A stretch of DNA of 58,393 nt, taken from assembly GCA_002709695.1 (NCBI GenBank), contig PAQF01000039.1, forward strand, positions 1-58,393, read 5' to 3'. The notes beneath the pieces were generated by a model. The model made no database searches, was not told the DNA's origin, and was given only the letters and a program-made list of their open reading frames with translations. Source of the stretch: Candidatus Poribacteria bacterium. GTDB taxonomy: Bacteria > Poribacteria > WGA-4E > UBA9662. This document shows, one piece after another, positions 36,201 to 52,553 of the stretch (its first letter is position 1; every line of letters starts with the position of its first letter). Position numbers and translations under genes: made by a program.

Positions 36201-37217
36201 TTAAATTTCCCTCCCAACAGCAATAGCAATCTGCTTTAAATCGTGTAATAGCTGATTGAATTGATCTGGGAAAAGGGATTGCACACCGTCACCTGTCATC
36301 GAGTTGTCAGGATCATGATGGACTTCAACGATCAGCCCGTCGGCTCCAGCGGCAATTGCAGCTTTGGCCATGGATGGAACGTAGCTTCGAATACCAGTGC
36401 CGTGACTTGGGTCCACGATAATCGGTAAATGGCTTAGTTCTTTGATAGCTGGAACAGCATTTAAATCAAGTGTATTTCGCGTGTGGGTTTCGTAGGTACG
36501 AATTCCACGTTCACAAAGAATGACGTTTGGATTTCCTTCGGCAAGAACATATTCGGCGGCAAGTAACCATTCTTCGATAGTTGAAGAGAGACCCCGCTTT
36601 AAAATAACAGGTTTTCCGTGTCTGCCAATTTCACGCAACAAGGAAAAGTTCTGCATATTGCGTGTGCCGAGTTGAAAGACGTCAGTGTATCTACCAACGA
36701 GACCAACTTCGTGTGGTGTCATTACCTCTGTTACAACACGTAGGTTTGTTTCTTCTCGGGCTGTAGCTAGCATTTTCAGAGCCGATTCACCATAACCTTG
36801 AAAACTATAGGGTCCTGTGCGTGGTTTGAAGGCTCCACCGCGAATGAATTGGGCCCCCGACGCCTCGACATACTTGGCAATTTTAACGATTTGCTCTGTA
36901 GTTTCAACTGCGCATGGCCCTGCCATCATCGCTAATTGTTTGCCACCTATTTTTACTCCATCAACGCTGATTACGGTGTCCTCTTCATGAAATTGTCGGC
37001 TTGCAAGCTTATAGGGAGCGCTGATTGGCATGATGCGTGACACTCCAGACATAGACTCTATTGGAGTATCACTCAGTGCTGTTTTATCGCCAATTACCGC
37101 GATTACAGTACACTGTTCTCCGACGTTCATTTGAGTTTTTAATCCTGCGTCATGTGTGCGTCGCACCACTTGTTCTATTTGTTCTTTGGTGGCACCATTT
37201 TCCATTATGATAACCAT
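36201..37217 (-). CDS. aroF: 3-deoxy-7-phosphoheptulonate synthase, type I-beta with N-terminal regulatory domain
   Basis: A 338-residue DAHP synthase, the first enzyme of the shikimate pathway. Residues 1-67 form the ferredoxin-like (FL) regulatory domain (MVIIMENGATKEQIEQVV.. TVIAVIGD), the feedback site in Thermotoga-type enzymes. The barrel has AGPCAVET, GGAFKPRTGPYSFQG, TEVM, LGTRNMQNFSLL, LKRGLSSTIEEWL, CERGIRTYE and VDPSHGTGIR, the last with the metal-binding histidine. AAGGAGGTGGG is a strong ribosome site six bases before the ATG. Upstream is an attenuator-like leader with a Phe/Tyr-rich leader peptide, so aromatic amino-acid control is expected both at RNA and protein level. Confidence 0.95.
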   Translation of the reverse strand: MVIIMENGATKEQIEQVVRRTHDAGLKTQMNVGEQCTVIAVIGDKTALSDTPIESMSGVSRIMPISAPYKLASRQFHEEDTVISVDGVKIGGKQLAMMAGPCAVETTEQIVKIAKYVEASGAQFIRGGAFKPRTGPYSFQGYGESALKMLATAREETNLRVVTEVMTPHEVGLVGRYTDVFQLGTRNMQNFSLLREIGRHGKPVILKRGLSSTIEEWLLAAEYVLAEGNPNVILCERGIRTYETHTRNTLDLNAVPAIKELSHLPIIVDPSHGTGIRSYVPSMAKAAIAAGADGLIVEVHHDPDNSMTGDGVQSLFPDQFNQLLHDLKQIAIAVGREI

Positions 37218-37255
37218 CTTTTATGTCCCACCTCCTTGAAAAAAACCTTGAAATT

Positions 37256-37294
37256 AAAAACGCCCGTCATCGACTTTCTGTTTCGATGATGGGC
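37256..37294 (-). terminator. Intrinsic terminator in the aroF leader (attenuator)
   Basis: On the minus strand GCCCATCATCGA (37294-37283) pairs with TCGATGACGGGC (37273-37262), 11 of 12 base pairs, around a nine-base loop, followed by GTTTTTAAT. It ends about 45 bases before the aroF start, so it can stop transcription ahead of the gene. Confidence 0.85.
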
Positions 37295-37320
37295 ATTTCT
37301 GGTAGAGCTGCCAGTATGTC

Positions 37321-37422
37321 CTAAGGTTCGTTTCCAAATTGCCTGCCATCGACTTCAGAATAGATGTTAAACGTATAATAAAGGCAAAAGATACTTGAAA
37401 GTTCGATCCGGATTCGTGACAT
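37321..37422 (-). CDS. Putative aroF leader peptide, Phe/Tyr-rich
   Basis: A 33-codon frame from ATG 37422 to TAG 37321. GAGGAG lies 12 bases before the ATG, and the start is about 30 bases after the predicted transcription start. Residues 11-21 read IFCLYYTFNIY, so two Phe and three Tyr codons (TTT, TAT TAT, TTT, TAT) stand together; a further Phe is residue 29. In classical attenuation, ribosomes stalled at scarce Phe-tRNA or Tyr-tRNA let an antiterminator form. Bases 37340-37352 (TCGATGGCAGGCA) can pair 10 of 13 with the 5' arm of the terminator (37283-37295) and lie within the last codons, as the model demands. Inference from sequence only. Confidence 0.6.
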   Translation of the reverse strand: MSRIRIELSSIFCLYYTFNIYSEVDGRQFGNEP

Positions 37423-37457
37423 TGGAAATGAATTCTCCTCAGAAAATTGCGTCGTAT

Positions 37458-37486
37458 ATTCTAACAAGATAACCACATGGTGTCAA
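37458..37486 (-). promoter_or_regulatory. Promoter of aroF
   Basis: On the minus strand TTGACA (37486-37481), a 17-base spacer and TAGAAT (37463-37458). The expected start point is near 37451, which puts the whole leader peptide and terminator into the transcript. Confidence 0.85.
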
Positions 37487-37535
37487 GAAAATCCTTATTT
37501 AATAGTTTTTAATATAAAACTTAAGTTGATTCTTG

Positions 37536-52260: not shown

Positions 52261-52553
52261 TGAAATAAAAAAGCCCTGCCCGTTCCAAAACTATGGAGAC
52301 GAGAAGGGCAAAACCTTACCGCGGTACCACTCCAATTCCTTAATTGCGTTACAACCCAAAAAGGCTCTTAATTTCAATACGATGACGGGTATGAACCGAC
52401 CAGCCCTACTTTGCACTTTGCTGCAGGTTTCAGGCTAATAGCTCCAGGACGACATTCAATCGGAGTTCTCGAGGAAATGTTCCAGCCTTTGCACTTCCTT
52501 CTCTCTTCAAGACCTTACCGACCTACTTATTCCCTTCAAAGCTTTTGAATGAA
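52261..52553 (-). promoter_or_regulatory. T-box riboswitch leader of ilvBNC
   Basis: On the minus strand, from the predicted start near 52553: AGTA near 52528, a G-A-rich kink-turn sequence AGAGAG, the stem AGGAAGTG/CATTTCCT with a 12-base loop, the core T-box sequence TGGTACCGCGG (52329-52319), and a terminator GCCCT..AGGGC followed by TTTTTT (about 52308-52268). This matches the T-box order: stem I, antiterminator, terminator. The short helix GGTCGG/CCGATT precedes GAATGTCG, where GTC (Val) followed by a purine would be the specifier. That reading suits ilvBNC but is tentative. UGGU pairs with a discriminator A, as in tRNA-Val. Confidence 0.85.

Follow-up and report, generated by a model that had tools for sequence, protein, structure and literature searches.

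The question raised by this locus is whether aroF, on a 58,393-nt contig from an uncultured Candidatus Poribacteria bacterium (the whole stretch analyzed, here called the window), is controlled by a leader peptide that senses aromatic amino acids. AroF catalyzes the first, committed step of aromatic amino acid synthesis. Its gene has hisS and leuA as neighbors, one on each side, and its product is the single match to PF00793 in the genome (G000) by profile search; the role of the enzyme at the committed step and its being the sole PF00793 protein were both counted in favor of attenuation at aroF. The AroF of another Candidatus Poribacteria locus (L001) is 75% identical to that of the window. 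In the direction of transcription, the gene and the elements ahead of it were as follows:

37458-37486, minus strand: sigma-70-type promoter TTGACA-17-TAGAAT (-35 at 37486-37481, -10 at 37463-37458, TG before the -10), read from the sequence
37435-37440, minus strand: GAGGAG, probable leader ribosome binding site, 12 nt before the ATG, with the same GAGGAG in the nearest relative (G001)
37321-37422, minus strand: leader peptide frame of 33 codons, MSRIRIELSSIFCLYYTFNIYSEVDGRQFGNEP, with its stop at 37323-37321, supported by frames in relatives and by purifying selection in family f3
37340-37352, minus strand: strand 2, antiterminator 5' arm TCGATGGCAGGCA, within the leader frame and 7 nt past the last Tyr codon of the aromatic tract, pairing with 37295-37283
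37283-37295, minus strand: strand 3, shared arm TGCCCATCATCGA, partner of either strand 2 or strand 4 by pairing and covariation
37262-37273, minus strand: strand 4, terminator 3' arm TCGATGACGGGC, pairing with 37294-37283
37256-37260, minus strand: terminator U-tract TTTTT, read from the sequence, with a T run in relatives also
37215-37237, minus strand: aroF ribosome binding site AAGGAGG (37237-37231) and start codon ATG (37217-37215), read from the sequence
36201-37217, minus strand: aroF, type-I 3-deoxy-7-phosphoheptulonate (DAHP) synthase (NF006421, 487 bits, cut-off 335; TIGR01361, 389 bits, cut-off 267.75)

As in an attenuator, a short open frame (37422-37321) sits between the promoter (37486-37458) and aroF, and codons for the end products are clustered before the antiterminator arm, both in the window (F12, Y15, Y16, F18 and Y21, with a further F29) and in the tracts of relatives. 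The promoter, 33-codon leader, terminator and alternative stem that an earlier note on this DNA had described ahead of aroF were all recovered at these positions, and the alternative stem (37352-37340 with 37295-37283) has 11 of 13 pairs (10 Watson-Crick and 1 G-U), consistent with the 10 of 13 given in that note. The terminator stem (37294-37283 with 37273-37262) has 11 of 12 pairs with one A.C mismatch and is followed by GTTTTT, and a second T run lies at 37239-37245 (minus strand). The distance of 12 nt from GAGGAG to the leader ATG is long and less than ideal. A TTGACA, a spacer of 17-18 nt and a TANNNT -10 also precede the leaders of G001, G002, G003, G006, G019 and G021.

Evidence from this single sequence was suggestive, and the comparison with relatives was decisive. 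When the leader was shuffled by dinucleotides, 0.4% of the shuffles contained an ATG frame with at least five Phe/Tyr codons per 10, as did 3 of 2240 window tiles, and a looser test that allowed any stop-free frame gave p = 0.055 for the aromatic cluster. With six window proteins as the compositional background, the cluster of 10 codons had a binomial P of 0.0003, a value that holds for a chosen span of codons. Overall, the cluster is modestly above chance in the window sequence alone (p about 0.004-0.06). For the terminator arm, the best-scoring alternative pairing had p of about 0.05 (shuffles of the window leader alone), and the minimum free energy of the whole leader was not unusual (z = -1.6), as expected where structures compete. 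T-rich DNA readily encodes Phe and Tyr, which explains why enrichment per single sequence is modest and why the case for an attenuator had to rest on comparison.

We searched 85 poribacterial genomes and read the upstream DNA at 60 loci with AroF identity of at least 70%; one of these was truncated at the edge of its contig and one genome was represented twice, leaving 58 genomes from nine genera and four families. All 58 have a terminator with a T run, and 56 have an antiterminator arm that fits one common register without gaps. The remaining two (G053 and G073; loci L097 and L132 among those read) keep the terminator and have no antiterminator arm in the common register. In the leaders of these two genomes, a G-run, CGGGGGTAGG, may pair with TTCACCCCC in a different register. 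No such leader was seen, by reading or by scan, at the more divergent copies of AroF (g6, the second copies of G003 and G006, and families f5-f8 and f10).

Covariation was scored on an alignment (A1) of 33 distinct leaders, from which the strands had been excised and joined by hand. The antiterminator helix was 83.9% paired, with 8 of its 16 pairs doubly changed, and its covariation score was 0.311 compared to 0.193 when shuffled (reached in 0 of 500 shuffles) and at most 0.161 in slid registers; the position of this helix was set per sequence to maximize pairing, which inflates the paired percentage and affects the covariation score less. The terminator helix was 96.5% paired, with 6 of its 13 pairs doubly changed and a score of 0.268 compared to 0.167 (0 of 500) and at most 0.090 in slid registers. 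Since strand 3 is common to both helices, all three strands (2, 3 and 4) change jointly at the terminator base.

The leader frame has also been kept in relatives. Many poribacterial leaders read, for example, GLYLYLYLYLYSNDRW followed by a stop, and further tracts include FYLYLYLYLYGNDRW (also followed by a stop), YRSFYAWALYAFLLYLR and LYFYTLGLFMRLLYLHNDGG; frames in families other than f3 include YRSYYSWALYALLLYLR, LYFYTLGLFMRLLYLHNDGG, LYDRYLYTFLLYLRGDGG and LYFRYYSDGQQ. In most of the nine genera, the aromatic tract stands immediately ahead of strand 2. It is mostly Tyr with some Phe, and in family f3 also holds many Leu residues. Its sequence differs widely among genera (LYPFLY, YLYFYTLGLF, YRSYYSWALYA, FCLYYTFNIY), with aromatic content alone in common. 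As expected of an attenuator leader, the frame is under coding selection in family f3, where pN/pS was 0.32 compared to 4.0 and 1.3 in the shifted frames (40 distinct sequences), with the caveats that sequence pairs are not independent and that indels in the LY repeats may add noise. Differences in the 16 codons before strand 2 fell 330/235/730 across the three codon positions (162 sequence pairs). The f3 frame usually ends in TGG TGA within strand 2. Among f3 leaders, those of L090, L101, L108 and others are an alternating (Leu-Tyr)n of variable length, with the stop codon within the antiterminator arm GGTGGTGA. We propose that, in this family, a ribosome finishing the leader would itself mask the arm.

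The comparison shows that, across these genomes, the layout and the frame have been kept and both stems covary; from this we infer that the leader is translated in the cell and that the ribosome stalls on it, and likewise which of Phe and Tyr matters more. The aromatic attenuator layout proposed in the earlier note thus gains support from stem covariation and from purifying selection in f3, and the aroF element is very probably a transcription attenuator of the classical ribosome-mediated type, with charged tRNA-Tyr and tRNA-Phe as its signals. RNA polymerase would start near 37450, with the leader peptide translated behind it. When Phe and Tyr are ample, the ribosome would pass codons 12-21 to the stop at 37323-37321 and cover or have passed strand 2, upon which strands 3 and 4 would pair as the terminator and aroF would not be transcribed. 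Under a shortage of Phe or Tyr, the ribosome would stall in the tract and leave strand 2 (37352-37340) free to pair with the emerging strand 3; the terminator would then not form and aroF would be read. Judging from the anatomy, a stall in codons 12-21 would place the ribosome before strand 2, and a ribosome finishing at the stop would have crossed it. The leader sequences also allow a proposal as to which amino acid each lineage may sense.

Covariation and folding both point to an antiterminator and an intrinsic terminator that are mutually exclusive and have one strand in common, as in an attenuator. In folds that ended before strand 4 and left strand 2 free, the antiterminator of the window had a mean pair probability of 0.78 and those of relatives about 0.7-0.99, the exception being one locus (L085) at 0.05 or 0.9 depending on the start chosen. 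The antiterminator could not form when strand 2 was masked, and the terminator dominated at equilibrium in all cases folded once strand 4 was present. In the nascent RNA of the window folded with no ribosome, strand 2 was predicted to take other partners, which left the antiterminator with a mean probability of 0.00. These results suggest a kinetic competition whose outcome hinges on strand 2 being free when strand 3 emerges, as in classical attenuators.

The weak spot of this reading is the window's own genus. Its only other member, the nearest relative (G001), retains the promoter, GAGGAG, frame, stop and both stems, with a perfect terminator. Its aromatic residues are reduced to F12, Y22, F23 and F30, and its leader has no aromatic enrichment over shuffles. 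The two leaders of the genus differ by 3 synonymous compared to 15 nonsynonymous codon changes, giving no purifying signal within the genus. The aromatic tract may be under weaker constraint here, and Y22-F23 of the relative, shortly before strand 2, could stall a ribosome. The earlier note had asked whether relatives keep the terminator while dropping the Phe/Tyr codons or the frame. Across the order as a whole they do not, since 58 terminators and 56 arms come with Phe/Tyr-rich frames, but in G001 the cluster is partly eroded.

This relative, which has both stems and a weaker aromatic tract, together with the modest single-sequence statistics, is what could be said for a plain terminator, or for an attenuator under the control of a protein or small ligand, in which the leader frame would be an accident of T-rich DNA. 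We consider such an origin improbable, given the purifying selection specific to the leader frame, the aromatic tracts right before strand 2 in most of the nine genera and the recurrence of long Y/F runs in two other phyla. Nor did the leader match any riboswitch or T-box in Rfam, where a search (gathering score; E up to 5) returned only sub-threshold chance matches. A nascent-peptide arrest, in which the peptide would respond to a ligand within the exit tunnel and stalling would not come from a lack of charged tRNA, might account for the unusual LYLYLYLY alternation of family f3, which is Leu-rich as well as Tyr-rich, but it is very unlikely to be the mechanism because the tracts vary among genera and have aromatic content as their sole common trait, which tRNA sensing fits better. 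T-box control of aroF can be virtually dismissed: T-boxes exist in the phylum, with one ahead of ilvB in the window, and a Clostridiales aroF locus (L014) has a T-box-like GGTGGTAACGCGGG, but the T-box core (RF00230) had no match at 37200-37500, whether at the gathering score or with E allowed up to 5, in the Rfam search that found the T-box at 52292-52548.

Apart from the putative aroF attenuator, other amino acid leaders were seen in the same genome and its relatives. The T-box leader of the window (RF00230, 106.6 bits, 52292-52548, minus strand) lies ahead of ilvB-ilvH-ilvC, and of 83 poribacterial genomes searched, 77 had T-box matches with E no higher than 0.001, mostly one or two each, and 59 had matches that exceeded the Rfam cut-off. 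A Trp-type attenuator layout stands before trpE in the window's genus, at L156/L157 of the window's own genome (G000:C47) and at L158 of G001. The trpE leaders read MVFRVGIWQSRTEVIVCVSRWRHIDRSGSVPV, ending in CVSRWRHIDRSGSVPV (G000), and MQTRWPRSKVISCVKRWWYTSWGRSVPV, ending in CVKRWWYTSWGRSVPV (G001), each closed by a stop and followed by a terminator. At 28 other poribacterial trpE loci, two of them with <200 bases upstream, the same scan found no terminator, and no attenuator was seen in the DNA read upstream of pheA in the window's genome. With the aroF and trpE leaders and the ilvB T-box, this genome would have at least three amino-acid-sensing leaders, judged by sequence.

The same aroF leader layout was found among 79 AroF loci of other bacteria, in Desulfobacterota, Brocadiaceae, one member of the Phycisphaeraceae and Geosporobacter. 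Among the Brocadiae and Syntrophobacteria loci (L187-L246), 51 had a terminator, preceded in 47 by a Phe/Tyr/Trp-rich frame; examples are RLYYYCFYYYPLGG (Syntrophobacteria) and YWVFYYFKYYYKRGGY (Brocadiae). Leaders in these two groups carry long Tyr/Phe runs such as YYYCFYYYP and FYYFRYYYKRG. By eye, the leader and stem sequences of Poribacteria, Brocadiae and Syntrophobacteria have no mutual resemblance. Taken singly, the antiterminator scores of L015, L036 and L061 were not significant by shuffling, so it is the recurring Y/F tracts together with the terminators that carry the claim for bacteria other than Poribacteria. The Clostridiales locus noted above, which had been picked by the automatic leader scan, was set aside, its T-box-like sequence standing directly before the terminator ahead of aroF. 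On balance, we lean toward the view that Phe/Tyr leader-peptide attenuation of type-I aroF is widespread and largely unreported in non-model bacteria (Poribacteria, Planctomycetota/Brocadiae, Desulfobacterota/Syntrophobacteria and some others), with leaders and stems that differ by group, and in f3 a stop within the antiterminator arm, and that it is either very old with fast turnover or repeatedly invented. With the layout recurring ahead of aroF in three phyla, how old this kind of regulation is can be put to the test.

The earlier note had held that such a layout was not described for this phylum, and our literature search agrees, having returned no relevant paper. Searches for Poribacteria with attenuation, leader peptide or T-box found nothing, and those with riboswitch only a Verrucomicrobia genome report; most subscription journals lay outside the search, so priority is not firm. 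As far as the literature searched, this is the first well-supported leader-peptide attenuator found for Poribacteria, and comparison alone argues for translation-coupled control of aromatic synthesis in this uncultured phylum. It is well supported by these sequence comparisons as a new case of a known type of switch, apparently unreported for Poribacteria, with an aroF attenuator already known from Corynebacterium glutamicum.

Among known systems, the attenuators of proteobacterial pheA, pheST and trp are textbook knowledge. The mechanism proposed here resembles that of trpL in outline, and a Trp-type version occurs before trpE in the window's genus, but trpL senses Trp rather than Phe/Tyr and its target is trpE. 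An upstream 1:2 pause hairpin is present in trpL and is not universal among attenuators. T-boxes (RF00230), which are also present in Poribacteria, likewise sense tRNA charging from within amino acid gene leaders, but they bind tRNA directly, have no leader peptide and are absent at the window's aroF. With pheA (pheL) of Escherichia coli and proteobacterial pheA and pheST, the aroF leader has in common a leader peptide, an exclusive antiterminator and terminator, and aromatic control codons (general background, summarized in PMC11802643); these systems differ in their target genes and in sensing Phe only, and no Rfam leader model matches the window leader. A survey of Actinobacteria reported finding no conserved RNA structure upstream of operons for phenylalanine or tyrosine (PMC1262725), and C. 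glutamicum has an aroF leader with Phe-Tyr-Phe and an attenuator ahead of the gene (PMC4046766). This leader, named aroR, responds to Phe and not to Tyr, according to PMC11802643 (citing Neshat et al. 2014), whereas most poribacterial tracts are mainly Tyr. The two have the same target, aroF, a short aromatic leader and an attenuator before the gene, but aroR is actinobacterial and has three control residues compared to tracts of five or more in Poribacteria, and we liken them by layout, not by sequence homology.
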